Positions 265 through 22,446 of a stretch of DNA of 64,000 nt are shown here, one piece after another. This DNA comes from Sordariomycetes sp. S80-01Y (taxonomy: Eukaryota; Ascomycota; Sordariomycetes), in the NCBI GenBank assembly GCA_037042185.1, contig JAXQJY010000032.1, positions 2,232,001-2,296,000 on the forward strand, given 5' to 3'. A program made the translations under genes and the position numbers. The notes below the pieces were generated by a model. The model worked only from the letters and a program-made list of their open reading frames with translations, was not told where the DNA came from and ran no database searches. The first letter of the stretch is position 1, and the number at the start of each line of letters is the position of its first letter.

Positions 265-281
265 TTCGGAAGCGTTCCGAA
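265..281. promoter_or_regulatory. Inverted repeat TTCGGAA-N3-TTCCGAA
   Basis: Perfect 7-bp arms separated by GCG. It lies 7 bp left of a larger inverted repeat with the same TTCCGA core. Both are in the promoter of the FAH gene. Related elements lie at 8235-8255, 11806-11822 and 19091-19146. Confidence 0.45.
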
Positions 282-287
282 CCACTT

Positions 288-312
288 CCGTTCCGAGACA
301 TCCTCGGAACGG
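288..312. promoter_or_regulatory. Inverted repeat CCGTTCCGAG-N5-CTCGGAACGG
   Basis: Perfect 10-bp arms with a 5-bp spacer, ending 92 bp before the upstream ATG of the FAH gene. The embedded CCG/CGG triplets in inverted orientation are what Zn2Cys6 dimers usually recognise. Binding is inferred, not shown. Confidence 0.5.
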
Positions 313-403
313 TCTACTCCCCTTTTCGGCACATAGTCGACGCAGGGAAGTAATAAACATACAATATTTCAGTAAACACAGTCGTTCTATTCTGAGGCAT
401 TAC

Positions 404-1428
404 ATGACTTCAACAAACCTTTTAAAGAAATTCATCACAAAGCAACCTCGACATCTCAATCATCAAACCCCCTTTCAAGGAGACCGCTTCCGCCATTCAT
501 TTCGCACCATGGCTGCTTGGCAACGACTCATCCGCTTTGTCGACGACAACGGCAAAGAAACCTTTGGAGAGCCCTTAGTGAGCTCCGAGAGCGAACTTGA
601 GAGCAAACTTGCCAGTAATGAGCTGTATGCCACAGAATTCAAGGGCAAGTCTCCAGTTGGCGACCTGGCCAGGGGAGAAAAGGTCCATGTGAAGAGCTTG
701 AGTGGCATATTGAAGCCTAGTGATGTTCCTATTATCCGTTGCATTGGTCTGAACTACACCAAGCATAGTAAGTCTGCCCTTGAGCCTGACCACGACGGCA
801 ACTGACAGCCCCAGTCAAGGAGGGAGGCCGCACACCACCGCCATATCCTTCCGTCTTCATCAAGCCATCAACTTCTGTCACAGGATACGATGAAGACGTA
901 CCTATCCCCAAGATTGCACAAGACGGCACTGTTGACTATGAGGGAGAACTTGCTATCGTGATTGGCAAGACGGGCAAGAACATTGCAAAGGAGTCCGCTC
1001 TGTCTCACATTGCTGGCTACCTAGCAGCCAACGATGTCTCCGCCCGCGCTTGGCAGAGAGATCCTAAGAAGGCCGGCGGTGTTCCTCAATGGTGCTTCAG
1101 CAAGGGGTTTGACAAGTTCGCCCCGTTGAGTCCCATGCTCGTCTCCCCAAGCGTCGTGGGCAACGCTTCAGATCTGCACCTGCGCACGCTAGTGAATGGA
1201 GAAGAGCGTCAGAACACGAGCACTGGTGATCTTCTCTTTGGCGTCGAAGACATTGTGGCTTTCGTCAGCCAAGGCACAACTCTAGAGGCCGGGACTGTTA
1301 TTCTAACAGGAACACCTTCAGGTGTGGCTATGGGAATGAAGGAGCCCAAGTACCTGAACGATGGCGATGTTGTAGAGGTCAGCATCAGTAGCCTCGGGCG
1401 TGTGAGGAATAAGATGGCTTTTGAATAG
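404..1428 (+). CDS. Fumarylacetoacetate hydrolase-family acylpyruvase (FAHD1-like)
   Basis: Exons 404..767 and 809..1428; an alternative acceptor at 814 keeps the frame and drops two codons. The domain is a compact FAH fold: the metal-binding E-x-E motif in DYEGELAIV, then NDVSARAWQ, KGFDKFAPLSP and the glycine loop GTPSG. Known relatives hydrolyse acylpyruvates such as fumarylpyruvate or decarboxylate oxaloacetate. Two starts are credible. The ATG at 509 has a strong context (CACCATGG) and gives 292 aa. The in-frame ATG at 404 adds 35 residues rich in K/R and hydroxyl residues with a single acid, typical of a mitochondrial presequence, giving 327 aa. Gentisate 1,2-dioxygenase is encoded about 17 kb away, so fumarylpyruvate hydrolysis is a plausible role, but oxaloacetate decarboxylase or a general acylpyruvase is equally compatible with the motifs. 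Confidence 0.9.
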
Positions 1429-1534
1429 AGAATTGAAATAGATGAGAATCATAAAAAATTGACATGTAGACTAAATTATTCACCGGACTTTGAGACATTC
1501 GTGGCGACCATGCCCTTAGATATACAAACTGTCT

Positions 1535-3949
1535 CTAGTGTTGCGGATTGCCAGTCATGCTGTGGTTTGTTTCGCTCGGCAGCGGGCGAGGACGTCTGAA
1601 AGTTGCAAAATCAGTGTCCTCGAGGTTGGGACTTTGCTGGGGATGATGAGGCTCCTCCTGGGGCTCTTGTGAGGGAGCCAACGTGGGCCCGCCCATTGTG
1701 CCCACTCTAGAAGGTCTCCTGGCATGAAGCTCATGAGTTTCTGTTGCTTGCCACATTCTATGTATGGTCTCATGGGCGAGAATGAGGCCACCCCTGTGTG
1801 CCCCGCTGCTTGACTCTCCTGTAATACCGCCCGTGTCATCTCCCAACTTATCATGGCTTTTCTGAGCCCATTCAAATTCCGGATGGCGCATGTAGATGAA
1901 GTTCTTTCCTCCGTTGTGGCTCCTATATGTCATGATGGCGAGGAATCCAAAATACCACAGCGCCGCGAAGGCCAGTATGCACCATGAGACGACAGGGACA
2001 GTGTACCAGTCTCCTGTCTTGGAAATCCTGGCGGCCGCATCTCGTGTTGGCGGCACCCAGGTCATGACGACAAGGTAGAAGTTGGTGATGAGGTATATGA
2101 CGGCACTTATGATCCCTACTTTCGGGTTGACTGTGCCCTTGATCATCTCGCTCCATTTCCTTTCGATTGGCTGTTGCTCAGGTACGTGATGATGGTTCGG
2201 CGTCTGAATTGGCTGCGTTGCAGGAGGACCCCTGAAATGAAGGATCAAGATGCCGATGGCGAGCAACGTGCCGAAGCAAGCCGCAAGTACGTATGACAGC
2301 AGCTTACTCAGGAAAATGTAGGAATTGTTCGGGGTCATTGAATATGTGGCCAGGAGCAGAACGATGCAAGTCGCCAAGTGAAGCACCAGCGCGCCCACGG
2401 GTGTCTTCTCTCTGTGGTTTGCGGGGTTAAGAAACCTGATGCTCCGACGACGAGAGCTGCGCGTGCCGTTGTCGAACCACATTAGGAGTCTTCCGAGACT
2501 GACGTCCTTATCCTTCGCAAAGAACCCGGCAAATGGAATAAAGCATTGCTTGGCGATTTCCTGCTTCATCCGTACAGCAGTGAAAGTCCAGACCACAATG
2601 TTTCCAAATGACGAGATTGCGAGAAAGGCGTTGGCCGTCTGTTTTGAACGGTTGCTGTCGCTAAAAACGCGTTTGAAGAACTCTTGGGCAACATTGTTGT
2701 CGATCTGTGCTTGGACGGGCACGACGATCATCTAGTTGCGTGTCAATTAGCTGTGCGACCTCTAGGATGAAACGTAGGCGAAGAAGCCTTGGGGCGACTC
2801 ACGTAGCAAATGTTAACCGCCAAGTAAAGCACACAAACTATTCCCATACCCCACCAAATAGATTTTGGGAGAGTCTTGCGAGGGTTCTTGATTTCTGATA
2901 ACACCTTGGTACTCAGTCAGTGTTGTCCATGAATCCTCACAAAGTCAGGGTTCCGGGCAACTTACATAGTTGGGCTGGTAGAATCCAAAGAAGGCGAATA
3001 CTACATTTGATTAGTGTATGCTTGCAGGTGAATGGTATAAATGATACTTACCAACAGTTGTGAAGGCCTGGGTATATCCAGCGTGCTCATTGTGAGTCTC
3101 GGGACCGTCGAAGTATTCCTCAACGTCTCCTCTCAAGGCGGATATGCCGCGCGAGCCACCTGCGACCGCCCAAGTTGATATGATCATAGCAACCATGAAA
3201 CCGCACTTGATAAACGCGAGGCCGTTGCTGAGGAGAATACCGCCACGTCGGGAGAAAGCGTGTATGAAGCAGGTGACAGTTGCAATCGTGATAGCAATCC
3301 CGTAGACGGAACCCTTGCTGAAGTCGGTATGTTCTTTGTTGGGGCTCGCGCACTGCAGAATACGCAGAGCGCAATCGATGCAGTTACTTGCCATGTTTCC
3401 AACGCAAATGAAGCTGATGCCAAACAGGACACAACTGAGCAAGACGGTCCCTTGCTTGTAACTTGGCCAGGAGAAGACGTATTGCAGATAATGGAGCTCG
3501 CCTCCTGACCGGGGCACCGACTGCTCGACTCCGTCAATGACATACCGTGGAACATTCAGTCCGTACTCTATGAAGACGTGCGCTCCTGAAAGACTGTAAA
3601 TACACCCAAGAAGCCATATCAGAACCGCAATCCCAGGGCTGCGAACTCCCTTCATTACTTCTTGTGGACCACTGAAAATGCCCGTGCCTAACCAAGGGTA
3701 TCAGTCTTTTGTCTTCAATTCTAAGACTATGAATATAGAAGACTTACCTATAGTCCGGTTTATCACTAGACAAGTAGTGTCAATGAAGGTCAGGCGGAAG
3801 GGCTCCTCGGGAGTCCTTGTGACGATGCGGTTCTTGTTGATGGGTATGTCGATCACGGCAGCGAGAACACCCCCATCGTTATGTAGACCATCATCGTAGG
3901 TCTGCCGACTAGTGTAAACCGTCGGCTCGTTCGATCGTACCTGATCCAT
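1535..3949 (-). CDS. Amino-acid permease, APC superfamily (LAT/methionine permease type)
   Basis: Five exons on the minus strand: 3949..3748, 3687..3052, 3000..2966 (35 bp), 2904..2803 and 2731..1535, together 723 aa. The N-terminal membrane segment carries INRTIGTGIFSGPQEVM, the APC signature in which the GTGIF turn breaks helix 1. Later segments include FAFFGFYQPNYVLSEIKNP (helix 6 region) and NVAQEFFKRVFSD. The motif TAVRMKQEIAKQCFIPF resembles the loop of fungal high-affinity methionine (Mup1-type) permeases. About 150 residues after the last hydrophobic segment form a polar Pro/His/Glu-rich cytoplasmic tail, longer than in typical relatives and possibly a target for ubiquitin-driven turnover (inference). 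Substrate cannot be read from sequence. It converges with the FAH gene, leaving about 106 bp between stops. Confidence 0.9.
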
Positions 3950-3971
3950 CGTCTCTGCAAATAATACAACA

Positions 3972-4007
3972 TTCACCTGGAGTACTTTCACCTGGAGTAC
4001 TTTCACC
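3972..4007 (-). repeat. 15-bp tandem duplication in permease leader
   Basis: TTCACCTGGAGTACT occurs twice in perfect tandem, followed by six bases of a third copy, beginning 23 bp upstream of the permease start codon. It probably lies in the 5' untranslated region. Confidence 0.7.
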
Positions 4008-5128
4008 AGAGGGTAGCCAGGGATTGCAGGAGCAGAAGAGCCACTACAAGTAGCCGCCTGTGATTCCTGACCGAACTCCCGAAACAAAGAAACGCCATCT
4101 CGTACAGCTTATCAATTGGACCTCGTTTCCGACAAGGCTGCCTGAGGAGCTCTCGCGCAGAGACACTGCCACGCGAACCGCACCTTCATGCCCAGGCGGC
4201 TGATATGCAAGGCGTCCGCGCCAACGTAGACCCCAGCAACGTAACCCCGCACGGGGCGAGCATCAGAAGGACTCTTATCCCGTTGCTCAGCTGGGCTGAG
4301 CATTGAAAGTGCACAATATTACCATGGCTGATTTGCTGCACAAGACCAGCACAGCCTCCCCGGCCAATGGTGTGGCATGCAGTAGTACGCTGTGAACGCC
4401 TGCAGAAGCAACTGGAGGAGATAGCGCGTCAACTTCGGGACCGACTGACGTCGTCACACATTGGTGCATCGCCCAGCTTGTTCTTGGCTGAATTTGGCTG
4501 AATAGCTTTGGTACCACAGGTTGACAAAGTGAGGCAAGCCTGTCCCTTTCGCAAAGCTGAGCGAGCGACGGTTCAGCAGGGAGGTCCAGGGAATATTCGA
4601 TTTCAGTAGAGATACCGAAGTTCCAAGTTTTTGATAGATGCCATGATCACCTAGAAGCTACTGGGAGCCGGTCACTACGGCCCGAGGACTTGGTATACGG
4701 GGTGTCCCGTGTGTGTGGTAGGACCGAGGTACATCAACAGGCAGCATACGTGTATTCTATTACGCACGTTTCCAGCTGGGCTCTCGGCCCCGGATCGGAG
4801 TGTGGGGGGCCCGGGCAGATAAGCTGGGATTAAAAAAAGGCCAGGTTGACTTGGTACTCGTTGTTTTGGGGCGCAGTGCGGCAAGCTAGCTCAGCTGCCT
4901 TCGCTGTTTCTAAGCCTCGTCAGTCATCGACGGCTCGCGGCCACGCGACATGACAGCCTTCCCTCGTTTCGTTTATGACACCGACCATTTCTCCTACATG
5001 TGGGTTCGTTAGGCTGCACGTAAGGAGATTTCCCGACGTTGTTTCTTCTCTGTCATTTCTCTACTGGCGGTTTCACGGTTTACCCGTCTGACTTACTCTG
5101 GCTCTCGTCGGCTCTTGTGTGCTTGAAG
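4008..5128. other. Intergenic region between divergent genes
   Basis: About 1.1 kb separating the divergent permease and fungal-specific gene. Short open frames on both strands show no recognisable domain and no convincing exon chain. Likely promoters for both genes. Confidence 0.5.
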
Positions 5129-7695
5129 ATGGCGGGGCCCATCCAAATCGGTGACGCTCTAAGACTGGCCGAGCTGGCTTGGACTGTTTGGGAATATGGC
5201 TGGGCTCACGAGTATAATGCAGGTTCGTCAGTGCTTTCATCACATTGTCGGGACGGGCTCAGTTCTGTCGATGCATCGGCGGATGCAACGACTGGAGGCT
5301 CTGCCATGTTCAGATGGGTTTCGGGTTGTCGCTCCGCTACTTGAAGCTGACTCTTGCTCAGGAGAAAATTACAGAGCTTTTGGTACGGATGTACAAACTT
5401 TGCACAGGAGCCTAGTGCGAGTCGAGGGAGCCATCAAGCGTGCTCAAGATTCGCTCCAGGCGCACGGCGCACACAACAACGATACCCTTATTGAAGATAT
5501 GGATCTATTCTCGGATATCGTTGGTGACTACAATCGAACTCTTAGCGACTGCCTTCAACTTATCGACGACAACCGTCGTTATGCTCACACAACTGGTCCT
5601 ATGCTCAACATTGACTGGAACCTGAATGTCATGCCACAGGTTGAGCACCTACGTGGCCGGCTCCAAATGCACAACGTTCGGATCCAGCACTTCCTAGGAC
5701 CGTTCGAAATGTAAGCCGGTGCTGATTTGTACAGGAAATTCCGCTGACGTCTTCTTTCTTAGCGACTTGATCAACAATTTCCACGGGAGCCTGGCACGAA
5801 GGATGATGAGCATGCACAACGACGTTTTGAGGATCGGCAGGGACATCGGAGCACTCCTCGCAGACAAGTTCCCCGAAGTTGCACAAGCAATTCATATGCG
5901 CGAGGAACAAAGCCTATGCACCATAGCCATTCCTGATCTCTTGTCATACAAACTGGACAGCGAGTTCAAATGCCACGGTCTGCCTCAAGCCCCGGACCTA
6001 CAGGACATGACAGATTGCTTCCTCGTACACTTTAACCGGAGTACCGCACTTCTACCATATGCCTCGAGAGGTGAAGGGACATGCCCACCTGTCTCGCAAT
6101 ATCTGGAGCTTCTGAAGTGTCAAGTCTTAATGAAGAATATCAAGGCATCACCCGAAATAGAACAACCTCGGAAAATGTCATACTGGCCTGGCTACGTCCG
6201 AGCTCTGGAAGAGGTAAAACCCCCTTTCTACCCACCCATTCAGCCCAAGATTCTTGCTTGCATTATTGTCAAACGTATCTGACTTTTGTGCAGAATTTAT
6301 CACACGAGTGCGCTAGATTTCGCACCGAGCTCTCGCCACCAGACGTATCCTTTGTCAATGACGAAGCGCTGAGCATCTGGACAACGGTCCAACGGCAGGT
6401 TCAAGCGCCAGCCTTGGATTCAGGACCCCCTCATGAACCTTTGTTATCACTGTAAGCCAGGACAATTGTATGTACAACATTGAAGATGCTGACACGACTC
6501 CTAGATCACTAGCCCCGGGAGACGACACGATGACCTGGAGGACAATGCAATTAGAAAGACAAGTAGGATCTGAATATCGATATCGCATCATTGAGAAGTG
6601 GGGGAACGCCCGGCAGCCGAGACCAGAAGGGCCTCACGTTGTTCACTTTGATACTCGCACTGCGATACTCAATCCTATCTACGCCGACCCAGTCGGAGAC
6701 GATGGCAGACTTCCGCCTTTGGAAATTGTTCTGGAACACAGCCACAGAACCTTCCGATATGTATTCCTCGACTTAAGGAGTCTTTTGCAGTTCCAGAGGG
6801 CATTGACAGGGTTCCAAGTCGCGGAAGCCTACATGCAGTCAGTTGCCATGATTCGGCCAGATTTTCAAGCGAAGCTAACGCCTCTAGATCACATGCAAGC
6901 GTGGTATTTGTCAGGCCTCGCAAAGAAGACTCCTTTGAAGAATATGCTACTTTACAAATCTGGATACCGACGAGCACTCAAGGGCGTTCTCAGAGTGGTA
7001 AGGCAGCAGACCACAGGAGCCTTAGTTCAGGGTCACCGCCGTCGGCGCATGCAACATTTGGGCACTCGAGCAGAGCACACAGTGTCTCCTCAACCCAATC
7101 AGGCTTCACCTCATCGACAAGTCATAGCAGCCTGGGGTTCGACGACTCCATGTCCATCGCCGTTAGGCTAGGGGGATCGGCCGCAACCACAGATCACGGA
7201 ACGATTCGCACGATGCCACGCAAGCCACTACTCGTGCTCTTCACCAGGAATCCGGAGACATCCCGTCGCTCAATCATCGCCATCGCTATAGATGGTGAGA
7301 CCAAGCCGAATCCTGAACGTTGCAAGTGCCAAAGCGAACAGAACGAAAAGCATTGCTTTGTCACGGCCGTTGAGCAGGGCCGAGGAGCAACATCGACACT
7401 TCAAACTCGTCGAATAACTCAGCCCGACCGTTGGAATCTACTATCGTTCCCCGCTCGAGCTCTTATTTGGGAGGGGCTTCTGCGGATCAGCATTCTGTTC
7501 CCGACAGTCGATGCCCGAAGGAGGTTTAGCGGAAGCTATTGCGAGTGCAAGTTGGTGACCGAACTCGACGTCGACAAGTGCCTGCAACAAGGACACGGCG
7601 GACTTATGGGTGCGGTGAGAACACTCTATCGGCGGCAGATGATTGTGCGACAGGGCTACAGTGACGCGCGTCCGGCCATCACAAGTACTAAATGA
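5129..7695 (+). CDS. Fungal-specific protein with N-terminal helical domain, function unknown
   Basis: Six exons: 5129..5222, 5362..5710, 5763..6213, 6294..6451, 6505..6837 and 6888..7695, together 730 aa. The start MAGPIQIGDALRLAEL and the helical 200 residues after it resemble the 'fungal N-terminal' domain that opens many filamentous-fungal proteins of unknown role, some of them linked to cell-death or NLR-like proteins. Residues about 440-730 form a second conserved block with YATLQIWIP and PLLVLFTRNPETSRRSI, joined by a Ser-rich linker. The last intron (6838-6887, donor GTCAGT, branch GCTAAC) is needed to join the two conserved blocks; without it the gene would look frameshifted. No enzyme motif, signal peptide or membrane span is visible. 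The family assignment is from memory of sequence style only. Confidence 0.8.
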
Positions 7696-8503
7696 CTATA
7701 TGGGCTGTTTATAGACTTAGAACAAGGCGCTACGCAGTCATTTATCAATATACTTGATAGTACTTGCTGTGAATGTATCTTCGAACTGCAACAGCCATAT
7801 CTTATCTTATGTACACCAGCAAGAAATTTCTCGGTCTAGGCTTGTAAGTCGTGCTTGGAAGATCCAAGGATTTGCACACACAGAGTCTGGCCCCTTGGAC
7901 GGGCGATATACAGGCCTTTTGAGCAGCTAAGTTTGACTCATTTGAAGACGAGCTGGCAAATCAGCTCGAAACTTTTAGTACAGCCCATCGAGATTGAATG
8001 GCAGGTCGTCAAGAAAAATAGTCGTTAAAGCTCCTTTTGATTTGGCCTGAAGCGGCCCAAGCAACGGGGAGCATCTACTTAGTACTATAACTACACCGCC
8101 CCTGAAGCAGCACCAATGTGTAGGACTTGAGGATGCTGCAAACTCGAAATACATGGCCACCAGCAAGGGCACACTTACAAAAAAGATATCGGCTCCCAAC
8201 AACTTGTGCTGACATCAAAACCAGAACTTTCGGTGTTCCGCCCGAGCTTCGGAACCGCTTCGGCTGAGTGGAGGTGGGTCTCGGAAGCCCCGAATGGCCC
8301 TCCGAGGTCTCCGAAGGCTCCTATCCTGCTCTTCCATCGGAAGCGATGTCAAATTTCCTACAGCCTGCCGATGTCCCACTGCCCGGCACACGTTGGTCTG
8401 CTGAGCGAATTCGAGTGGATCGGCGAGCCTTGCAGCTGCCGGAAGCATCACTGCCTTCCGCACGTCTGCTCCCGACGCAGCAACGCGTCTGATCCGCGAC
8501 GCG
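7696..8503. other. Intergenic region upstream of Zn2Cys6 gene
   Basis: About 0.8 kb. Nothing gene-like is seen. The segment from about 8225 to 8345 is dense in TTCCG, CTCGGAA and CCGAGG words, including the inverted repeat at 8235-8255. Confidence 0.5.
8235..8255. promoter_or_regulatory. Inverted repeat GTTCCG-N9-CGGAAC
   Basis: Perfect 6-bp arms, about 250 bp upstream of the Zn2Cys6 start codon, followed within 60 bp by CTCGGAA (8280s) and CCTCCGAGG words. It has the same core as the repeats upstream of FAH, GFA and gentisate dioxygenase, so autoregulation by this factor is a testable idea. Confidence 0.4.
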
Positions 8504-10925
8504 ATGCCTCAGCCAAACCAGCAGTCGTTGCTCAGTTCAGAGACTCCACGGAAGCCTAAGCGCGTCAAGATTGATGTGGCTTGTGAAACTTGTCGCACGA
8601 GAAAGGTCAAATGCGATGGCCTTCGACCTGGTGAGTCACTTTGGACCCCTTTGCCTGTATGTGGCAACTCACATTATGCGGCCGCAATCCTTGAGTGCAT
8701 AAGATTGCACCGTGTGTATCTTCGTTCAGATTGTGAACTTGGTGTGTTGACAATTTAAATAGCTTGTGGTAACTGCTTGAAGAAACCTGCGTTGAAGAAT
8801 AACTGCACATACATTCAACATGGCCCGTCTGGCCTGCCCCCTAGAAGATCTATCGGCTTCGATGTCCCGAGGACGGCAAGTCACGCACAGGAGAGCTTGA
8901 GTAACTCTAGGCAGTTCTACTCAGATGAGGACTTGAGTCATGCACATGGTCCAGTCAGATCTGGGGAATCTGCAAGCACAGAATTTTCAAGACCAGCGGC
9001 CATGTCGGATGCGTCACCAGCAAACCGATCGACTGGAGGTAATTCAGGCGGCTCACGACCCCCTGTGAGCAATATCAGCCCTTCCGTCATAGACTCTATG
9101 ACGGCAGTAATTGACGAGGGAGGTCGGACTCGTGAATATTTCGGCAGAAGCAGTGCCGGCTCCTTTACGGCGCAGATTAGGAAGGCTATTGAAGCCAAGG
9201 CTGGTGATAGCAACCCGTACTTCTCGAGGAAAGACGACTCTGTTCCAGCTCAGCATTTGAGAGCTTCGCCCATCTCAGCGCCTGTGGTCAATGATGCTCA
9301 CAGAGTTCTACCGACGCGGCGTCAGGCCGATCAGCTGCTCTCCGTGTACTGGAAATACGTGGATCCTCTTTACCCCTTTCTAGATCGCCAACGTTGGGAG
9401 ATGGCCTACCGTGCCATTTTCGATGGCACAACGATAGATCTGGAAGAGCACACTTTTCTAGCAACATTGAACGTCATTTTTGCTCTTTCGTCCCAGCTAC
9501 TGGAGTCACAAACCGCCGATCAGCGGGACGAGTCGAGCAACGTGTACTTCGACAGAGCGCAAGCGCTGCTCCCTCTAAACACTTGGAACGACAGCTCGCT
9601 GGAGTTGGTGCAGTACCTTCTGTTGACCAGTCAGTATCTGCAGAGTACCGATCGTCCGCATCAAACCTGGATGACGGTCGGGTCTGCTGTGCGCATCGCG
9701 CAAGGGTTGGGCCTCCACCTGCGCGAGACCTCGGCGAACCATCCTAATGTAGATGAGCGCGAGCTGCTCCGCAGGATCTGGTACGGCTGCGTTCTGATGG
9801 ACCGGTAAGTGAAGGAAGCTCTGGAACCATTCGAATCCCTGCTGACGATGGTAGGATGGTTGCCATAACGCATGGTAGGCCCTCAATGGTGTCTCCCTGC
9901 TTAGCTGCGGTGGTTTCCATGCCGACATTCTCGGACCATCTAGAGCCTCGAGGGCCTACGGCCTCAATTACTGATGCTGCATTCTTTGTCAAATCTGTAG
10001 AGCTTTATGAGATCATTCATCGGACGGTCCGAACGCTCTACGACGGAATGGGAGCAAGGCCAAAGCAGGTCGCTGCATCTGATAGCGATGCAGGCTCGGA
10101 CGAAGAGCAGATAGATCTTGGCATGGTGCTGCACCTCGACAGTACGTTGGGTAGATGGGAGCGCAAGCTTCCGGAGCGCCTTAGGTATCTTTCTCCACAG
10201 CCGAGAAGTGAGATCACGCACCGGCAAGCGACGATCTTGTACATACGGTAAGCTTGTAGAGCGAATATTCAGCAAGGGCCGAGAATAACGTGAATAGTTT
10301 TCTTCACGCTCGAATTCTTCTCTTGCGGCCAATCCTGGGGTCCTTTTGCCTGGCGCCCCCAACAGAAGTGGAGAGTCCAGATACTCTAGAAGGTCGGGTA
10401 CTGAGGGAGTGCGCATTGCTGTGCGTCTCAACATCCCAAGACGTCATATCCACCTTACTGAAGCATCAAACGGCCGATGGCACCGTTGGCCTCTTGCCAG
10501 CCTGGTGGTACCGCGTTTACTACGTTTACACGGCGGCAACTGTACTGATTGCAGCCAAGCTTCGGCCAGAGGCGCTCTCGGGAAAAGACCTTGGCAGATC
10601 TTGGAGTCAAGCCATGTCTGTGCTCAAGGCCCACGAGAAGTTCGGACAGTCAGCTCGGAGGTGTGTAGCTGCACTTCACTTCCTTTCCACAAAGGTGAAT
10701 CAAGACAGCGGCGGAGACCCATCTGGCAGAACCTCAAATGGGGATGTTGGGCAGGTTGGCCAATACCAAGACGCCGTCGACATGCAGCAAGCTTCCCTGC
10801 CAGAGGATTTCCCCTCTTTTGACGGCATGGAAAATTTCGGTTTCCAGGATGTCGAATTCGACGTCAATGACCTCACGTGGCTGAATGATATGCACGCTAC
10901 GTGGGAGCTTCTGAACCATGGATGA
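8504..10925 (+). CDS. Zn2Cys6 transcription factor with fungal-specific TF domain
   Basis: Four exons: 8504..8630, 8763..9804, 9855..10247 and 10298..10925, together 729 aa. The binuclear zinc cluster uses C27, C30, C37, C44, C47 and C57 (CETCRTRKVKC, then CGNC and the final C). The first intron falls between the third and fourth cysteines, a frequent position in this family. The basic stretch PRKPKRVKID precedes the cluster. From about residue 210, RQADQLLSVYWKYVDPLYPF starts the fungal-specific TF domain (PF04082 type), and QGLGLHLRE is also typical of it. The acidic C-terminus may be an activation region. Neighbouring aromatic-catabolism genes and shared promoter palindromes make it a candidate local regulator; target and inducer are unknown. 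Confidence 0.95.
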
Positions 10926-11066
10926 AGGGACGCTTGGACTCTTCATCGCTAAAGACACAGCTACATGGGCCTTATTCTAGGGAAGGCTCTTGGATTCATC
11001 TAGTGGTCTCGGCCCGTCGGACTGCTTGACCTTGGTCTACTTCCTCTGGCTCTCTGACTAAATGAA

Positions 11067-11612
11067 TCACTTCCTCATCTGCTCCCACTGTGGAACCCCT
11101 TCCACGGCAGACATCCATGCCGGCCGATTCTTGACGAAAAGTTCGTTGTTGGGTTTGAGCTCAAGACTATACGATCTCAGCCTTCACTCGTTGCTCAGAT
11201 CGGAGGCTTCCCTCCCGGCCGACACTTACCCCTTGTCGAGAAGAGAAGTTCTGACGATGTAGAACTTGCCTGCTGCTGACTCTGGTACTGTCCAAAGAGT
11301 ACATCCGCACGTCCTGCAGAAAGCTTTCTCTTTTGGACTTCCGCTGGCGGTATCGTGCAGTGTCACAGTCGAAATTAGATCGGGCGTGGCAGCATTGATC
11401 TCAACGCTTCGAGCCTCGCATTTCGCCAGCTAGACGCGTCAATTAGCCTGCAACTTGGAGTGGATAAGTCTCTTTGGCCTTACCACTTGGTTTGGACCGC
11501 CTGCATTCTTCTGGCAATGCCTACAATAGCAAGATAGAACCACAGCAGGCTCCGAAGAAATCGACAAGGTCACACCACCACACAGACAGCCTCCAACGTA
11601 CGGAGCGGGCAT
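11067..11612 (-). CDS. GFA-domain protein 1 (CENP-V/GFA zinc fold)
   Basis: Three exons on the minus strand: 11612..11484, 11429..11230 and 11166..11067, together 142 aa, the usual size for a single GFA domain. Zinc-ligand cysteines are plain: C9-x-C11, the CYCRHCQKN block (C28, C30, C33) and CRTCGC (C81, C84, C86), followed by LDKGLELKP near the end. The family was named for glutathione-dependent formaldehyde activation, but most members have no proven activity. Start chosen at MPAPYVGG just before the first ligand pair. A second, diverged GFA gene lies 0.9 kb away on the same strand. An inverted repeat at 11806-11822 lies about 195 bp upstream. Confidence 0.9.
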
Positions 11613-12482
11613 TCTATTTCCGTTGTATCGTGGTGAGGTCGAGCTCCTGGGTGAGGTATTTCCAACAACCTCAAGTGTCCCTTCGCAATGCCTGACCGTT
11701 AAGTACAACGGTCGAGCGACTAAGTCTACTGTTGTCAAGACTTACATCTATCCATACGATCCAAAACTGGCCTAGTGTGCTCAACCCACAAAGCAAGCTC
11801 CGAGCTTCCGAGGCCTTCGGAACTCATTAGCGCCTCCCGAGCAACATTCCGAGACCGGCTCCCGGAGTTCAAGTGAAGGGATAATAGCTAAGAGGCATCG
11901 TCCTGGCTGACAAATTCGATCCGAATCCATTTTGAGGAAACAAGAAGAGACGATGACTAACAAATCGCTTGAGTTGATTCGGCAGACACCACTGGATCTT
12001 TTAGACACAGAAGCCTCAGTCGTCAACCCGCAATTCCCCGTGCAATCCCCACCCAACTTGGAGCTTGGATGACTCGCGTCCTGCACGCATAGCTAAATGT
12101 GGAGGAGGGCAGGACGGTCTATTGATGATTGAGCTCGCGTTGAGTGTGGAGAGAGTTTGTTCTGCGCAGTCAAGCATTGTCATGTCGATCCGAACCATCC
12201 GCAGCCTATACTGTGAGGTAGCAATGATAAACATCGAGGGCACCGTCGTCTGTTGTGAGGTCTTCAAAAGTATTTCACACCCTGCTCCCGAGTCCTCGCA
12301 TTGAGAATTCAGACGCCTTTAGCCGTCCACAGCTATTAGCGCGCCATGCTCCGTTTCGTAATCGCCAACTTTACCCCCTCTCGATACCCGCAGGCTCTCT
12401 CTGTGATACCAGCGCCCGCTCGTTCAACATCAGTCTAGGCGTGAGGTGGTCGAGACCTGAATTGGCTGTCCGGCAGGTATTT
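11613..12482. other. Spacer between the two GFA genes
   Basis: About 0.87 kb with no recognisable gene. It contains the promoter-type inverted repeat at 11806-11822 and further CCGAG words to about 11860. Confidence 0.5.
11806..11822. promoter_or_regulatory. Inverted repeat TTCCGA-N5-TCGGAA
   Basis: Perfect 6-bp arms with a 5-bp spacer upstream of the first GFA gene, embedded in a CCGAG-rich 70-bp patch. The core matches the repeats in front of the FAH gene, the Zn2Cys6 gene and gentisate dioxygenase. Confidence 0.4.
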
Positions 12483-13083
12483 CTAAACCGAGGGTTCCCT
12501 TATTACCTCCTCCGCCGGAGCTTGACCTTCGAATTGAACCATATTTTCCATGTCCTGGAGCCAATCCACTCTGTGCTTTACGTACTGCTCAATAGTTGGC
12601 CTCAGTGCAGTTTCTGCAAGTTTGAAATCATCCACAGTGCCGATCCTCAGTATGCTCGCCACCGAAACACCCGCGGATCTACGGTACATCAGTGATCCAC
12701 AGGTACTGCAGAAGAAGTTGGTCATGACGTTTCCCTTTTGCTCGATTGTCTGAGATTGGCTGAATTGCTTAAGATTTTCCTCCCCGCGAACATGTTTCAA
12801 GTGGGTATTAAGGATGAGGAAGCCGGAGGTGAACATCGAGGCCGTGATTTTACGGCAGTCGCTGCAGTGACAGACAAAGGCGGCAACGAAGCCTGGTTTG
12901 GATAAAGGCTGAATGCAATGAGTAACTTGGTTTCATCTAGAGCAACTAAGAACTCACAAAGGAGAGTTGCACAGCACCGCAGTAGCATGTCGCTGTTGCT
13001 TCCTCCGCCGTTGACCAGCCATCCTGCGCAAGGCCTGCCCGGGGGAAGAACGAACCAGCGCTACCGATCACTTCATGAGCCAT
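12483..13083 (-). CDS. GFA-domain protein 2
   Basis: Two exons on the minus strand: 13083..12958 and 12908..12483, together 183 aa. The ligand pattern is CYC (C33, C35), CHCSDC (C55, C57, C60) and CSTC (C109, C112), then YRRSAGVSVASILRIGTVDD, characteristic of the longer GFA subfamily whose members end in a W-L-Q-like helix. It is too diverged from the neighbouring GFA gene to be a fresh tandem duplicate. Start MAHEVIGS is the first ATG of the exon, and an N-terminal arm of about 30 residues precedes the zinc motif. Function unknown beyond zinc binding. Confidence 0.9.
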
Positions 13084-13299
13084 GATTACTGAATAGATCT
13101 TGGGCAAAAGAAGTGATTGAGGCGCAATCTCTTATTCTGTCTCTGTGAAAGAGGTGCGCAAAGGTCATGGGTTGCTGAAGTCCGTATAAGATTGATCTCT
13201 AGCTGTGCCCAGCAGTGGGGTAACATTGTTCTTGGATTATCATTACGAATACTTATATAGGCATGGATTAAACGAGATTATTAATCCTGCTTGGATATG

Positions 13300-13740
13300 T
13301 TCAATTCCGTTCATATCACTGGCGCGGGTTGCGGAGTTTCAGCCTCAAGTGCCGAACGCGTCTGTGGTTAATACGCAGGACAATCCGGACGCACATTCGG
13401 TGCGGTTATTGAGATCCATACAACATAACGAACGCCTGCTGTCAATGTAGCCAGGTGAAATGTTATTTATTCGGAGAATTGACCCGGGTGCACGTGTGAA
13501 GCGATGGAAGTCCTTTCGACATCATTTTGCCGGAGCCAGTCAGATATGATCTCAGCACAGTTCTTTTCTGCCACTTCGACGCTGGGTAGCTCAGCAAGCT
13601 TTTTTGCTATGGCGCCGGTCGAGGAACGTGTAAGCGCAAGTATTCTGTGGTTGGAAAATCTGGCCGTGGTTTTTAGAAGTTGTGACAAGGTTTCCATAAC
13701 GCCTTGTCTAGTGTTACCAGTGGCGCCGGCTAAGGATAGT
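13300..13740 (-). pseudogene. Decayed NmrA-like NAD(P)-binding protein pseudogene
   Basis: On the minus strand one frame reads GATGNTRQGVMETLSQLLK (Rossmann-type GATGNTG motif), SNHRILALTRSSTGAIAKKL, SHVHPGQFSE, a stop (13469-13467), then still in frame AGVRYVVWISITAPNVRPDC, a second stop (13370-13368) and a third (13313-13311). Intact fungal NmrA-like proteins of about 300 aa, as I recall them, carry a glutamate and a tyrosine at the first two stops and V-R-I-S-T-T where this has V-W-I-S-I-T. There is no ATG at the expected start. Several differences (R to W, T to I, R to Q) are C-to-T or G-to-A changes and the 3' end is A/T-rich, as RIP leaves, though the stop codons themselves need not be transitions. 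Confidence 0.75.
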
Positions 13741-14574
13741 AGGCGGCGTAGTTCCGTGTCAGAGTTCGGTACAAGTCGGTACGATGGAAGAATTGGTAGG
13801 GCCTGGGCTAAGGCATGTCCTGTTCAAGCGGAAGGGGGCTCTTGTTTATCTTTATGGAGAAGACACCAGCTATCAGGGCGATTGACGCTGTCTGCGAGAG
13901 TGAGCTCACACATCAAGGGCCAGTGTTTATCCCACAGCTTGGCTCAAGGATGGATTTCCCAACGTCCTCGAAAGCACCTGGAAAAAGGAGAAGGCCGTAG
14001 GTGAGTGAAAACGTGGGGGGAAGACGTTACTTAGTTATTTTGAAGCTCCATAAAAGATCACATACTCTCGGCCCAATGTCCAAAAACGGCATCATAACAG
14101 CGGAGTTTGCGCCGGCACGATCCGCGCCAAAGCCATAAGTCCGCAAGGAGTGGACCATAACTACAGAATACGGCTGAAGTAAAAGAACGGATTGTTCAGC
14201 AATCAGTTCTAGGCTTGACACTAGACCGAGGAATTTCCATCATTACCGCTAGTCGCCATGCAAATACTAGGGTTCAACTAGGCAAAGACTGTCAATCAGC
14301 TTACAAAGCTCACAAGTGGTTAGGCTGCCGGCCGCGGAGATCTGCGACAAAAAGGGAAAGCATGTCAAGGATGTGCCCAACTTGCTAGGTGAGATGGCGA
14401 TTAAGTGAGAAGCAGAGAACTTTCTAGGTATCAGAGAGAGAAGCAGACATTATGGGACCATCTCGGAAATAAAAGGCCTGGCAAGCATCCGCTTCTCAGG
14501 TCGATCCATCCATTTTGCTTGTTCCCAGGCTATTTTACCAACACCTACTAAATCTCAATCAATAATCGAGGATC
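13741..14574. other. Intergenic region upstream of SDR gene
   Basis: About 0.83 kb without a convincing gene. A minus-strand open stretch at 14221-14027 could be another relic but was not recognised. A lone CTCGGAA half-site is at 14462-14468, overlapping a TATA-like AATAAAAG (14468-14475) about 100 bp before the SDR start codon. Confidence 0.45.
14468..14475 (+). promoter_or_regulatory. TATA-like element of the SDR gene
   Basis: AATAAAAG, about 100 bp upstream of the SDR ATG, a normal spacing for a fungal core promoter with a short leader. A CTCGGAA half-site overlaps its left edge. Confidence 0.35.
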
Positions 14575-15570
14575 ATGTCTCGCTACGCAGCAGCTCACGC
14601 CAATCCTCAGGGTCCCGGCGACGCCCGGCCAACTGCACTCCAGATCATTGAAGACGAGGGTATGAACGGCAAACTACGCAACAAGGTCATTGTCATCACT
14701 GGCACCTCGTCAGGAATTGGAATCGAAACCGTTCGAGCCCTCTCAGCTACTGGAGCCAAACTTTTCTTGACGGCCCGAAGCCTCGACAAGGCCAAGGAAG
14801 CCTTGGCCGGCATCTTTGACCCCAGCCGCATGGAACTTGTCCAGATGGACCAAGAATCGCTGCAAAGTGTCCGTCTCGCAGCAAGCACCATTCTGAGTAA
14901 GACGGATAAGATTAACATCTTGGTCAACAATGCCGGAATCATGGCCGTCCAAACTCTTCAGTTCACCAAAGACGGCCACGAGCTCCAGTTCGGCACCAAC
15001 CATTTGTCTCATTTCCTGTTCTTTGAGCTGCTCAAGCCGGCACTTTTGGCGGGTACTACGCCAGACTTCCACAGCCGTGTTGTCATTGTGTCTTCAACAG
15101 CACACTTGAGGGGCGGCATCAACGCCTCGGACGACTACAATTTCGAGAAGAGCGAATACACCCCATGGGGGGCTTATGCGCAGTCCAAGACGGCTAATAT
15201 CTACATGGCCAACGAATTGGAGCGGCGCTATGGCTCTCAGGGCCTTCACGGGATAAGCCTACATCCGGGCGGGATCATGACCCCTCTCGCAAGGCACCTT
15301 CCAGCGGCTGAGTTGGAGAGGGCCGGCAATGACGGGGATCTCTTCAAGGAATTCAAGAGCCCTGAGCAAGGAGCTGCGACTACAGTCTTTGCGGCGATTG
15401 GAAAGCAGTGGGAAGGCAAGGGAGGGATTTATCTGGCCGAATGTGCGGAGGCAGATCCTTCGGAGGACGAGAGTAACGAGTTCGGCTCGGGGTATGCCAA
15501 GCATGCTTTCGACAAGGAGAACGAGGGACGCCTATGGAAGGACTCGCTAAGGCTTGTCGGGTTGGCCTGA
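14575..15570 (+). CDS. Short-chain dehydrogenase/reductase (retinol dehydrogenase-like)
   Basis: Single exon, 331 aa. Classical-type SDR: the nucleotide-binding glycine motif TGTSSGIG at residues 43-50, NNAG at about 118-121, the catalytic serine in VIVSSTAH (about 173-174) and YAQSK at 201-205 giving Tyr/Lys. The family oxidises or reduces alcohol/carbonyl groups with NAD(P)(H); TARS after beta-2 hints at NADP preference (weak inference). The first 33 residues are an extra arm, and an internal Met at residue 30 is an alternative start. The gene lies among aromatic and carbonyl metabolism genes with its own promoter; no signal peptide or membrane span is seen. Confidence 0.93.
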   Translation: MSRYAAAHANPQGPGDARPTALQIIEDEGMNGKLRNKVIVITGTSSGIGIETVRALSATGAKLFLTARSLDKAKEALAGIFDPSRMELVQMDQESLQSVRLAASTILSKTDKINILVNNAGIMAVQTLQFTKDGHELQFGTNHLSHFLFFELLKPALLAGTTPDFHSRVVIVSSTAHLRGGINASDDYNFEKSEYTPWGAYAQSKTANIYMANELERRYGSQGLHGISLHPGGIMTPLARHLPAAELERAGNDGDLFKEFKSPEQGAATTVFAAIGKQWEGKGGIYLAECAEADPSEDESNEFGSGYAKHAFDKENEGRLWKDSLRLVGLA

Positions 15571-16466
15571 AATCATGTTAAATAGATAATCATTACCCAA
15601 CACCCAGTCGTTATCGTTCGGCACCAGAAATCCTACTGCGTCAGCATATAAGTCTACTCCTCTTCCCGGCGGCATCTCCAACGCCTCCAAATACATGCTT
15701 CTGTGACAGTGGCGTTTCCAGGGCAATTTGAGTCTACCAGACGAAAGATATGTCAGCCATGCCCTTCGCTGACTCGTTGAGAACATGCCGGTAGATCTCC
15801 TCAGTGTGGATCGGTTGTATATTAATCCGCTCGCAGCATGATGGTTGCAATTATAGCGACTGACCGTGGCCGGTTCGGTACATATGTGTTAGCCATCCAC
15901 GCCTGTAGCCTCTCCTGTGGCGATGATGGTTGCCCTCCAGCCCGTGGCTTTCGGGCCTGCGGGCGAACCCAATGGGTAAACGGAGAGTTGTATCACTGGA
16001 ATCTACTACGCCCCAATTGAAAGCCTTAAGTCATTTTGCTTCTACGTCGGCTTCTGTAGTAGTCTATCCCGTAGAGTCTCATGATATGTCTGCCTCAATT
16101 TAGATGGCGATGCAGTGCGTAGGTGGCTCAAAGGCTACGTTGAAATAGCCCCGCTACAGCCTCTAGCTGGCCTTATTCGAAGCTAAGCCCAGCTCGGTCT
16201 AGATGGGGCACTGGTCAGGTACCCATCCACTCAATAAGTCCTTAGGTCGCATTGGCCGTTGCGCTCATTAGCCTGAATGCGTGTGGACTGTTACCCGCGA
16301 CTCCCCGAAGCTCTGATGAGGAGATCGAAGAGGCCATGGGGGACAAGTCGGCCGGTTGAGTAATTTTGAGAGCACTCCTAAAATATAAGCAGTACATTTC
16401 ATCGCAGAGTATTGTAGATCAACTTCAACCCAAATCTCATAATTTCTCCCAAACGAGCGAGTCGAA
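15571..16466. other. Intergenic region upstream of Gfo/Idh/MocA gene
   Basis: About 0.9 kb, no gene recognised. A TATA-like ATATAAG at 16383-16389 sits about 80 bp before the next start codon. No copy of the TTCCGAG palindrome is seen here. Confidence 0.5.
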
Positions 16467-17543
16467 ATGGCAGAGAAACCTACCCTCCGCTGGGGTATCA
16501 TCGCCACCGGCCTCATCTCGTCATGGTTCGTCTCGGACCTCAATCTCGAACGCCCTGATGCCGAGGCCAACCACGTCATCCAAGCCATCGGCTCCTCTTC
16601 CCTCGAGAAGGGCAAGGCTTTCGTGAAGGAGCACATTCCCAACACCAGCCCGACGGTCTATGGTAGCTACGAGGAGTGTTACGCCGATCCCAAGGTCGAT
16701 GCCATCTACATCGGCACGCCCCATGCTTTCCACAAGCAAAATGCCCTCGACGCCATTAAGCACGGCAAGCACATTCTCTGTGAGAAGGCCTTCACGCTTA
16801 ACGCCGGTGAGGCAAAGGTTGTGCTTGATGCAGCCAAGGAGAAGGGTGTGTATGTCATGGAAGCCATGTGGACGAGACACTTCCCGCTGGTGAGGTCTTT
16901 GCAGAAGGTGCTCTATCAAGATAAGGCGATCGGCAAGATCCATAGGGCTTTCTGTGACTTTGCCATGGACCAAAAGATCGCTGAGAAGGGGCCGGAGTCT
17001 CGCCTCAAGAACCCCGCCTTGGGGGCTGGGAGTCTGCTGGACATCGGCATCTACAGCTTGACGTGGACCATCATCGGTCTCGAACCGCCCCTGGGCATGG
17101 GTTCCCAGCCCTTGTCATCGGCCCTGGAGAAGCCCAAGGTCGTCGCGTCGCAAACACTCTCCGACGGCATCGATGTCAGCTCTGCCCTGATCCTACAGTA
17201 CCAGGACGGACGTCAGGGCTTGGCCACCTCCAACACGAGCGTCAAGTCATCGGAGGACTTCTGCCGCATTGAGGGCAGCGAGGGAACCGTTGTTGTGCAC
17301 GGGCCCGCCGCGTCCGTACCGAGCTCCTTCACCGTGAAGAAGTTAGACGGCGAGGAGAAGACCTACGAATTTGAAAGAACCGGCAGGGGATTTTACTGGG
17401 AGGCTGATGCCGTCGCGAAGGATATCGCTGCGGGTCGAAAAGGGAGCGGTGTGATGCCGTGGAGCGAGACTTTGAGGGTCATGGAGATCATGGACGAGGC
17501 GCGTAAGCAGGGAGGTGCTAGATTCCCTCAAGATGACCAGTAG
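16467..17543 (+). CDS. Gfo/Idh/MocA oxidoreductase, dihydrodiol/D-xylose dehydrogenase type
   Basis: Single exon, 358 aa, the normal length for dimeric dihydrodiol dehydrogenase and fungal NADP-dependent D-xylose dehydrogenase relatives. The N-terminal Rossmann domain starts RWGIIATGLIS, followed by VYGSYEECYADPKVDAIYIG and LCEKAFTLN, where E106-K107 is the family's EKP-type catalytic lysine with Ala in place of Pro, as is usual in this subgroup. VMEAMWTRHFP and LGAGSLLDIGIYSL belong to the C-terminal sheet domain. Likely cytosolic. The substrate could be a trans-dihydrodiol or an aldopentose. Stop is 109 bp from the convergent gentisate dioxygenase stop. Confidence 0.92.
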   Translation: MAEKPTLRWGIIATGLISSWFVSDLNLERPDAEANHVIQAIGSSSLEKGKAFVKEHIPNTSPTVYGSYEECYADPKVDAIYIGTPHAFHKQNALDAIKHGKHILCEKAFTLNAGEAKVVLDAAKEKGVYVMEAMWTRHFPLVRSLQKVLYQDKAIGKIHRAFCDFAMDQKIAEKGPESRLKNPALGAGSLLDIGIYSLTWTIIGLEPPLGMGSQPLSSALEKPKVVASQTLSDGIDVSSALILQYQDGRQGLATSNTSVKSSEDFCRIEGSEGTVVVHGPAASVPSSFTVKKLDGEEKTYEFERTGRGFYWEADAVAKDIAAGRKGSGVMPWSETLRVMEIMDEARKQGGARFPQDDQ

Positions 17544-17652
17544 ATTCGTGCCTCCAAGTTAGAATATATACGAAACGCCAATGTATATTTTGCGGTACAT
17601 CAGTACAAAACATTGCTTGCTGAGAAGATGAATCAAAACTCCCGCTTCAAGC

Positions 17653-18803
17653 TCAAGGGTGTCTTAGTCCCAGCAGATCCAAAAAGGGGGCATCGTTGAC
17701 GGCAACCAAATAAGCCGGCTCGCTCTCCGAGTCGTTGAAATGTTCAAGCTTTGACCACGCCGGTACTGCAAAAGTATCTCTCGAACTCCACTCGAAAGTG
17801 ACCTTCTTCTGCCCAGGCGCCTCAATGGTCGTCCTCCCTTTGCCCTCAACACCGTGATAAATGAAGGATGAGCTGTCTTGTGATGATACAGAAGCGCCAG
17901 GCGCTAGTCGCTCAGCCTGCATACCGAGTGTGGTCGAAAGAGGTGAGCCGTCCTTCTTCTTGTAGTGATAGGTAGCGTGCTTGCTGTCCTGGCTTTCAAG
18001 CTGGGCCTGAACGGGAGCCCATGGGTGCCTCCATTCGCAAGGATCATATGGTCTGCTTTTAGTTAGACTCGTCGTTGGTGATAGGCAAAACCTCTGGCAG
18101 AACTCACTCGCTGGGGTACCGCTTCTCATCATATCCCTCGGCAAAGTGCACCCTTGCGTGCCGAAAGAGGGGCAAGTTCAACATGTCGAGCCAGATGACT
18201 GGTTTATCGCTCTCGTTGCCATGGTCGTGCCAGTGCCAGGTGGGGGTTACGACCACATCACCTCTGACAAGCGGCATCTTCTTGCCTTCAACTGCAGTGA
18301 AGCCCTCACCATCCATGATGAAGCGACAGGCAAACGCAATGTGCCTGTGAGCTGGAGCAATCTCACCAGGGTTGACGACTTGAAGCCCACCATAGATGGT
18401 GTCCGTAGTGTAGGGGGATTCTGTGAGATCTGTGAGCAGGTGGAATGCGATAAGGGGCTCATATCTTCTCACCCATGTTTGGGTTAACCAACATCAAGAC
18501 CCTCCTCTCAGCCTGCTCCTCTGGCACGAGCTTCGCTGCGCTTTGCAAATGTGGCAGCATCTCCTCATACTTCCAGATCGCTGGAACGGCTTCTGGGTTC
18601 GGACTTGGCGGAACCATGGCCCCCATTCTTGACCAGAGGGGCTCGAGATTTTTCGAAGGCAGCCCTGATAAGAAAACGTCCATCTCGCCCGCTGGTTCCT
18701 TTACTGCTCCGTTGCTGTGTCCATTTGCCTTTCCGTTCATGTACCCGTTTGTGGTTGCTTGCTTGTTTCCAGTCCCGGAAACCTTGCTGGTTTTGGAACC
18801 CAT
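17653..18803 (-). CDS. Gentisate 1,2-dioxygenase (bicupin)
   Basis: Three exons on the minus strand: 18803..18473, 18420..18108 and 18052..17653, together 347 aa. Ring-cleaving Fe(II) enzyme converting gentisate to maleylpyruvate. Visible signatures are EEQAERRVLMLVNP, YGGLQVVNPGEIAPAHRH with iron-ligand candidates H135 and H137, GDVVVTPTWHWHDHGNES with the third His (H175 or H177), and VIWLDMLNLPL. The C-terminal half (from about 225) forms the second, metal-free-type cupin. Introns interrupt just before the first cupin and between the cupins. The N-terminal 45 residues are a low-complexity Lys/Asn/Gly arm starting MGSKTS, which fits an N-myristoylation consensus. It is divergent from the MFS gene, sharing a 611-bp promoter with TTCCGAG palindromes. 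Confidence 0.93.
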
Positions 18804-19414
18804 AATTTCAAGCTTAGGAGATGATTAAGCGTTCAGCTTGGATACTGATGGCTCTTAACTGGTCGTTGGGGTGTGGTTTTGAGACTAGGGCTGAGGGGGA
18901 TGAGTTATCTGATCCGAGCTTGTCGTTGCTGGTAACGAAGCCAGCCCGCTTGAAACGACGAGGGGCAATTTTTACAAATAGAGAACGGAGATTCATATCA
19001 TCTACAGCCTTCTGCGCACAGCCTCGGGTCCTCTTTCCGTCGCCCCGAGGTAGGACAGGAATTCAACGTTCCGTCGTTAGCCTCATGGCGTTCCGAGACC
19101 TCGGAAGCTAGGTGGAGCTCCTTTCACCTCCGCTCCGAGATCTCGGGACCTGACTCGGACCACCAACCGGCCGACAAACCGGAAGCGTAGAATGCCCCAG
19201 GTTTCCCACTTCCACGTGGATTGTCGACGTTCGAAAAGACCCCGTGGGGTCCAGACCTCCCCCAACAGCCCCAACTAGTTCCGAGGTCTCCCAAAGTGCG
19301 ACAAACCTTTGGTTCGTCGGGCGGCGACGTAAAAGCTGTCGAGTATCCGCACCTCTTTCGCCCCTGTAACTCTCTTCCTCTTGCATAAGGTGAAGAAAAG
19401 ACGACTAGGTCAAA
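18804..19414. promoter_or_regulatory. Divergent promoter of gentisate dioxygenase and MFS transporter
   Basis: Shared 611-bp region between head-to-head genes. It contains two palindromes close together (19091-19106 and 19135-19146) and additional half-sites such as TTCCGAGG near 19279. No gene within. Confidence 0.5.
19091..19146. promoter_or_regulatory. Paired palindromes TTCCGAG-N2-CTCGGAA and CCGAGATCTCGG
   Basis: The first element (19091-19106) has perfect 7-bp arms with 2-bp spacer; the second (19135-19146) is a perfect 12-bp palindrome. Both give CCG-N6-CGG, a plausible Zn2Cys6 dimer arrangement, in the divergent gentisate dioxygenase/MFS promoter. Confidence 0.5.

Positions 19415-22415: not shown

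Positions 22416-22443
<28 letters not shown>
22416..22443. repeat. (GT)14 microsatellite
   Basis: Uninterrupted GT dinucleotides, 40 bp upstream of the start codon of the minus-strand 226-aa gene, so inside its promoter or leader. Such tracts can adopt Z-DNA and vary in length between strains. Confidence 0.9.

Positions 22444-22446
<3 letters not shown>

Follow-up and report, generated by a model that had tools for sequence, protein, structure and literature searches.

Results

Genes and inverted repeats at the locus

We analyzed a 64-kb stretch of the genome of Sordariomycetes sp. S80-01Y (C15:2232001-2296000, called the window here) that carries a putative cluster for the catabolism of gentisate, a plant phenol; several of the cluster's promoters share short inverted repeats. 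Gene models in the window were drawn by eye from reading frames and splice signals, and the genes have short introns. The genome searched comprised 30,874,049 bases in 16 contigs. An initial annotation of this DNA had reported six perfect intergenic inverted repeats; all six were found exactly at the reported coordinates, between gene models. They fall in four promoters, of which two (GH3/FAH and dioxygenase/MFS) are divergent.

The first of these promoters, 493 bp long, is shared by two genes. To its left is a GH3 beta-glucosidase gene, recognized from frames and Pfam, which reads on the minus strand from a start codon at 13-15, the remainder lying left of the window (L019:7401-9965); its product has GH3, Fn3-like and PA14 domains, and among solved structures beta-glucosidase I (3abz) is the best relative. 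To its right is a gene for an FAH-family hydrolase, a candidate fumarylpyruvate hydrolase, at 509-1428 on the plus strand (exons 509-767 and 815-1428; Pfam FAA_hydrolase). Relatives of the hydrolase in the PDB span several substrates, among them a putative fumarylpyruvate hydrolase, so the family is clear and the substrate not settled. The array at 265-312 consists of TTCGGAA-N3-TTCCGAA at 265-281, with 7-bp arms, and a second repeat at 288-312, with 10-bp arms, giving four merged half-sites. These repeats lie 197-244 bp before the FAH start codon and 250-297 bp before that of GH3.

The second promoter belongs to a Zn2Cys6 regulator gene at 8504-10925 on the plus strand, which has four exons and encodes 729 residues with Zn_clus and Fungal_trans matches above the Pfam cut-off. 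Its CX2CX6C...CX2C...C domain has a last gap of 9 residues, longer than the 6-8 residues of the Zn2Cys6 consensus as given in the accessible part of one report (PMC5082525). The array at 8235-8342 comprises the repeat at 8235-8255, 249-269 bp before the start codon, and half-sites at 8248, 8280, 8301, 8310 and 8337. Within the coding sequence of the same gene, at 9084-9104, there is also a perfect inverted repeat with 10-bp arms, CCGTCATAGACTCTATGACGG.

The third promoter precedes GFA-1, a gene of the glutathione-dependent formaldehyde-activating family and a candidate maleylpyruvate isomerase, on the minus strand at 11229-11612 (low end approximate; start codon at 11612; Pfam GFA in two exon frames). 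Here the array occupies 11799-11853, with the repeat at 11806-11822, 194-210 bp before the start codon, half-sites at 11799 and 11847, and a further one at 11920. The fourth promoter lies between a three-exon gentisate 1,2-dioxygenase gene on the minus strand (17653-18803, low end approximate, start at 18803) and an MFS transporter gene on the plus strand (19415-21183). The top PDB matches of the dioxygenase are gentisate 1,2-dioxygenases, with E-values down to 5.6e-56; the transporter, a candidate importer of aromatic acids or glycosides, was recognized from frames and a Pfam Sugar_tr match to its last exon frame. The array at 19091-19159 holds repeats at 19091-19106 and 19135-19146 and a half-site at 19154, with others at 18913 and 19279; the repeats are 288-343 bp from the dioxygenase start codon and 269-324 bp from that of the MFS gene. 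The repeats had been placed about 50-300 bp upstream of genes, a range that is slightly exceeded at the dioxygenase.

The unit common to the four promoters is the half-site (C/T)TCGGAA, or TTCCGA(G/A) on the other strand, with TCGGAA as its core. Each promoter has 4-6 half-sites, which lie some 130-360 bp upstream of the start codons and are arranged variously as outward-facing, inward-facing and direct repeats. We tried to describe them as a dimer site of fixed spacing, and this description found no support: the spacings between CCG and CGG triplets run from N5 to N9, with orientation mixed.

Local concentration of half-sites

The four marked promoters had initially been chosen because they carry the repeat, and we therefore added six comparison promoters: those of GFA-2, SDR, Gfo/Idh and the APC permease from the window, and two from a second gentisate cluster on contig C5 (FAH/aldehyde dehydrogenase and regulator/dioxygenase). 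After merging, each marked promoter had 4-5 half-sites per 200 bp, and each comparison promoter at most one. The absence of a full repeat before GFA-2, SDR and Gfo/Idh, as first described, was borne out. By arithmetic, a random split of the ten promoters would separate marked from unmarked in this way once in 210. The maximum in the background was 3 half-sites per 200-bp window across 4,139 overlapping windows from 212,511 bases; this background is not random, consisting of the remainder of the window and other loci, many chosen for holding the motif pair, and it excludes L001-L004 and L025-L034, among which is the promoter of the regulator paralogue on C10 described below.

When the 64-kb window was divided into 400-bp bins, the four bins richest in half-sites were the four marked promoters, and in dinucleotide shuffles of each promoter the observed maximum was reached in 0-0.2% of 3,000 trials. 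When all 5- and 6-mers of the four promoters were ranked against 121,819 bases of background, CGGAA (24 occurrences, 3.9 expected) and TCGGAA (13 occurrences, 1.1 expected) came out on top. For the pair TTCCGA-N0-20-TCGGAA, shuffles predict 0.13 occurrences in the window, and there are 3. The whole genome contains 40 such sites, of which the 18.8 kb of the cluster hold 3 (simulated P for clustering about 0.010), and 24 of the 37 sites outside the cluster were checked for open frames covering them. The longer form TTCCGAG-N0-12-CTCGGAA has 5 genome sites, 2 of them in the cluster, with 1 for its control (simulated P for clustering about 0.011); of the other three, one lies in a long polyketide-synthase-like frame, one in a long kinesin-like frame (both labels rest on reading of the frames), and one where the only covering frames have 144 residues or fewer.

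A related array before a regulator paralogue

Within the genome, the cluster regulator has its closest paralogue on another contig, with the start codon near C10:737818 (E-value 4.8e-32, 32% identity); the DNA-binding domains are 51% identical over 43 residues. The paralogue's promoter contains five raw half-site positions, which merge into four, in the region 440-488 bp upstream of the start codon. This array was spotted after viewing the promoters of this paralogue and of the next best, on C10 near 142 kb; in the upstream stretch read for the latter there was no dense array. Another regulator, at C15:660 kb, shows 48% identity over 43 residues, and the 3 kb examined there held 4 raw half-site positions and no dense array. 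The array before the C10:737818 paralogue and the sharing of one promoter by the GH3 gene are additions to the initial annotation.

Two composite patterns connect the C10 array with the cluster. TTCGGAA-N0-8-TTCCGAA has 2 sites in the genome and none for its control, one before FAH and the other before the C10 paralogue. CTCGGAA-N3-7-CTCGGRA occurs at 4 places, as does its control; two of the 4, in the GFA-1 and C10 paralogue promoters, agree both in their 5-bp spacer and in an 11-bp distance to GTTCCGAAG.

Downstream of the C10 paralogue is an FAD monooxygenase gene; among solved structures, its product has as best relatives a decarboxylative vanillate 1-hydroxylase and also an entry named 4-hydroxybenzoate decarboxylase. 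A single half-site lies in the upstream region of this gene. Also on C10, at 730509-735846, we observed genes for a MobA-like NTP transferase and a MoeA-like protein, together with one for a molybdopterin oxidoreductase that has a dinucleotide-binding domain and is closest to formate dehydrogenase and periplasmic nitrate reductase types. Enzymes of these types are regarded as prokaryotic, and the trio looks odd in a fungus.

A second gentisate cluster

A second gentisate dioxygenase is encoded at C5:966001-986000, with 53% identity across query residues 110-252. It is accompanied by genes for an FAH protein, an aldehyde dehydrogenase, a salicylate-hydroxylase-like protein, a Zn2Cys6 regulator, an MFS transporter and a stilbene-dioxygenase-like protein; except for the dioxygenase, these names come from reading of frames without a family search. 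In gene content the C5 cluster looks like the canonical gentisate cluster described by Greene et al. The two C5 promoters examined had no arrays (merged half-sites: 0 in one, 1 in the other). Near the C5 regulator gene (L035:9785-9806) there is a perfect repeat, TGCGGAT-N8-ATCCGCA, which could be that cluster's own promoter code.

Other features of the window

Among the unmarked neighbours, an APC permease gene (minus strand) lies between FAH and a multi-exon gene at 5129-7695, for which two frames searched gave no Pfam match. Between GFA-1 and the dioxygenase are, from left to right, GFA-2 (minus strand), an SDR gene and a Gfo/Idh gene. No gentisate-making hydroxylase of the sahG or MNX2 type was recognized among the subset of window frames searched with Pfam. 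The lone half-sites previously noted at 14462 and 43110 are present, and TTCCGAG occurs 21 times in the window. There is a GT dinucleotide microsatellite at about 22419-22444 and a perfect inverted repeat with 10-bp arms, CGGGCGCAATTGCGATTGCGCCCG, at 63265-63288.

Discussion

The shared site stands before cluster genes and before the regulator gene itself, and arrays are found before pathway genes and not before the bystanders compared, so they are probably binding sites of the cluster's regulator. The CGG triplet within the half-site suits a Zn2Cys6 DNA-binding domain. We consider it probable that the repeats are cis-regulatory sites of the gentisate-catabolism cluster, bound by the Zn2Cys6 activator encoded at 8504-10925, its own promoter included. 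An autoregulated Zn2Cys6 regulon was the suggestion of the initial annotation, and judged from sequence it is the best-supported reading; in place of the Zn2Cys6 dimer site suggested with it, the unit is a half-site used in arrays of mixed orientation and spacing. Since the spacing is not fixed, binding would probably occur in several units.

Binding, activation and autoregulation are inferred, as are the nature of the inducer and any enzyme role more specific than the family. An aromatic acid, hydroxybenzoate or gentisate, may act as inducer of the Zn2Cys6 protein, which would then switch on uptake (MFS), ring cleavage (dioxygenase), isomerization (GFA-1) and hydrolysis (FAH), and would raise its own expression. 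GH3 is a putative member of the regulon because it shares its promoter with FAH, and it perhaps frees a phenol from a beta-glucoside.

The closest known system is the gentisate cluster of Candida parapsilosis, which, in the part of that report available, consists of MNX2, HBT1, GDX1, FPH1, GFA1 and GTF1, with GFA1 proposed by its authors to be a glutathione-dependent maleylpyruvate isomerase (PMC8929692). By family, the marked genes match five of those six (MFS, dioxygenase, FAH, GFA-1 and Zn2Cys6), and as described there both systems combine a Zn2Cys6 activator (Gtf1p, 741 residues; here 729) with a dyad motif repeated in the cluster promoters (PMC8929692). The lack of a repeat before GFA-2, SDR and Gfo/Idh supports the proposed regulon, as these genes are outside the known gentisate-cluster list; all four neighbours compared, the APC permease included, are outside the C. 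parapsilosis six and unmarked. The systems differ in that the Gtf1p site is GGA-N7-TCC and, in the portion of the paper at hand, was not found before GTF1, whereas here the regulator's own promoter is marked (PMC8929692). Relative to that account, the present cluster has variable TCGGAA arrays and an added GH3 gene, and an MNX2-type hydroxylase was not recognized (PMC8929692).

In filamentous ascomycetes, the GC clusters (Greene et al. 2014), as far as the accessible text describes them, have gdoG, fphG, a C6 regulator and an MFS gene in common with ours by family, and they carry sahG and sdoG, neither of which was recognized in the window cluster (PMC3914699). Rss1 of Ustilago maydis is likewise a Zn2Cys6 activator for catabolism of an aromatic compound, salicylate, and its authors find self-regulation conceivable (PMC5082525). 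In the sections of that paper available to us its binding motif was not determined, and the sites are not comparable (PMC5082525). The literature search (open-licence papers) gave no usable consensus for FacB and no instance of the TCGGAA-array motif. A NirA-like site, CTCCGAGG, was considered and set aside; one copy is present in the regulator promoter and none in the other three.

Several results weigh against assigning the arrays to this regulator. The choice of the four promoters for carrying the repeat is one, and the unfixed CCG/CGG spacing, unusual for a simple dimer site, is another. The C. parapsilosis element GGA-N7-TCC is confined to one of the four promoters, that of GH3/FAH, which has 2 copies. 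Genome-wide counts, judged against reversed-pattern controls, point the same way: TTCCGA-N0-20-TCGGAA has its 40 sites against 59 for the control, the inward pair TCGGAA-N0-8-TTCCGA 14 against 30, and half-site triplets, in each of three orders, 2 places against 2 control places. The distinct triplet places are the FAH, GFA-1 and C10 paralogue promoters and the inside of a 581-residue frame on C13. TCCGAG-N0-4-CTCGG somewhat exceeded its control (79 and 86 on the two strands against 59 and 59), and is too loose for use. It is therefore the location of the sites that is unusual and not their genome-wide number, with TTCGGAA-N0-8-TTCCGAA and TTCCGAG-N0-12-CTCGGAA as exceptions. In the genome-wide search that followed from the initial annotation, most patterns did not rise above their reversed controls; the concentration that exceeded the promoter shuffles is local.

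One alternative is that the arrays bind another Zn2Cys6 protein, most plausibly the C10 paralogue, or bind both proteins as a cross-regulating pair. The paralogue is the closest by E-value, with the similar DNA-binding domain described above, and its upstream array includes the repeat found elsewhere only before FAH. The cluster's own regulator gene, however, is adjacent and marked, as is usual for a pathway-specific activator, and the hydroxylase gene beside the C10 paralogue has only the one half-site upstream. We regard this alternative as rather unlikely.

The initial annotation had itself raised a dispersed short repeat family as the rival to regulation, and chance clustering belongs with it. 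The pair counts that fail to exceed reversed controls, the frequency of single half-sites in the window, and a clustering test that on pairs alone reaches a P of only about 0.01 would all suit such an origin. A dispersed family is nevertheless unlikely because the GFA-1 promoter stretch at 11780-11880, the one of the four promoters searched in this way (very common words skipped), matched only itself in the genome; stretches common to the promoters are short and centred on half-sites, and the arrays exceed background windows and shuffles and fall on pathway genes. We give repeat dispersal or chance very little credence.

A last candidate is FarA/FarB (CTF1). In the parts of the literature available, FarA/CTF1 bind CCTCGG (PMC5068947), and ferulate use by Aspergillus niger requires FarA (PMC10512302). 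These are also Zn2Cys6 proteins, and as described there CCTCGG is a short hexamer, not paired, that serves a broad regulator (PMC5068947, PMC10512302). In our promoters the hexamer coincides with the outer portion of several half-sites and is less enriched than TCGGAA. That the sites are CCTCGG elements of this general fatty-acid and hydroxycinnamate regulator, with the longer repeat incidental, is most improbable: although each of the four promoters contains CCTCGG (7 copies overall, 1.62 expected), TCGGAA and CTCGGA (13 against 1.3) are far more enriched, the paired arrangement and AA/TT flanks are not in CCTCGG, and a FarA code is the weaker description of the promoters.

Binding of the arrays by the cluster's own activator thus remains the reading we favour. 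In kind, a cluster with its own Zn2Cys6 activator and a shared promoter motif is ordinary and already known. A broader scheme, which we put forward tentatively and think may well prove wrong, is that TCGGAA arrays would link two duplicated Zn2Cys6 regulators of different aromatic branches, auto- and cross-regulating, one being that of the gentisate cluster and the other that encoded on C10 beside a decarboxylating vanillate/4-hydroxybenzoate-type hydroxylase, with GH3 freeing a phenol from a sugar conjugate in the gentisate branch and the canonical C5 cluster on a different promoter code.

In the literature searched, a promoter code for fungal gentisate breakdown has been described only for the yeast C. 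parapsilosis. The motif reported here separates pathway genes from the bystanders compared, and the pattern fits the hypothesis from C. parapsilosis that a GFA-family protein is the maleylpyruvate isomerase of the gentisate pathway. This single genome offers a natural comparison, since its two gentisate clusters seem to differ in promoter code and a paralogue of the regulator shares the code of one of them.

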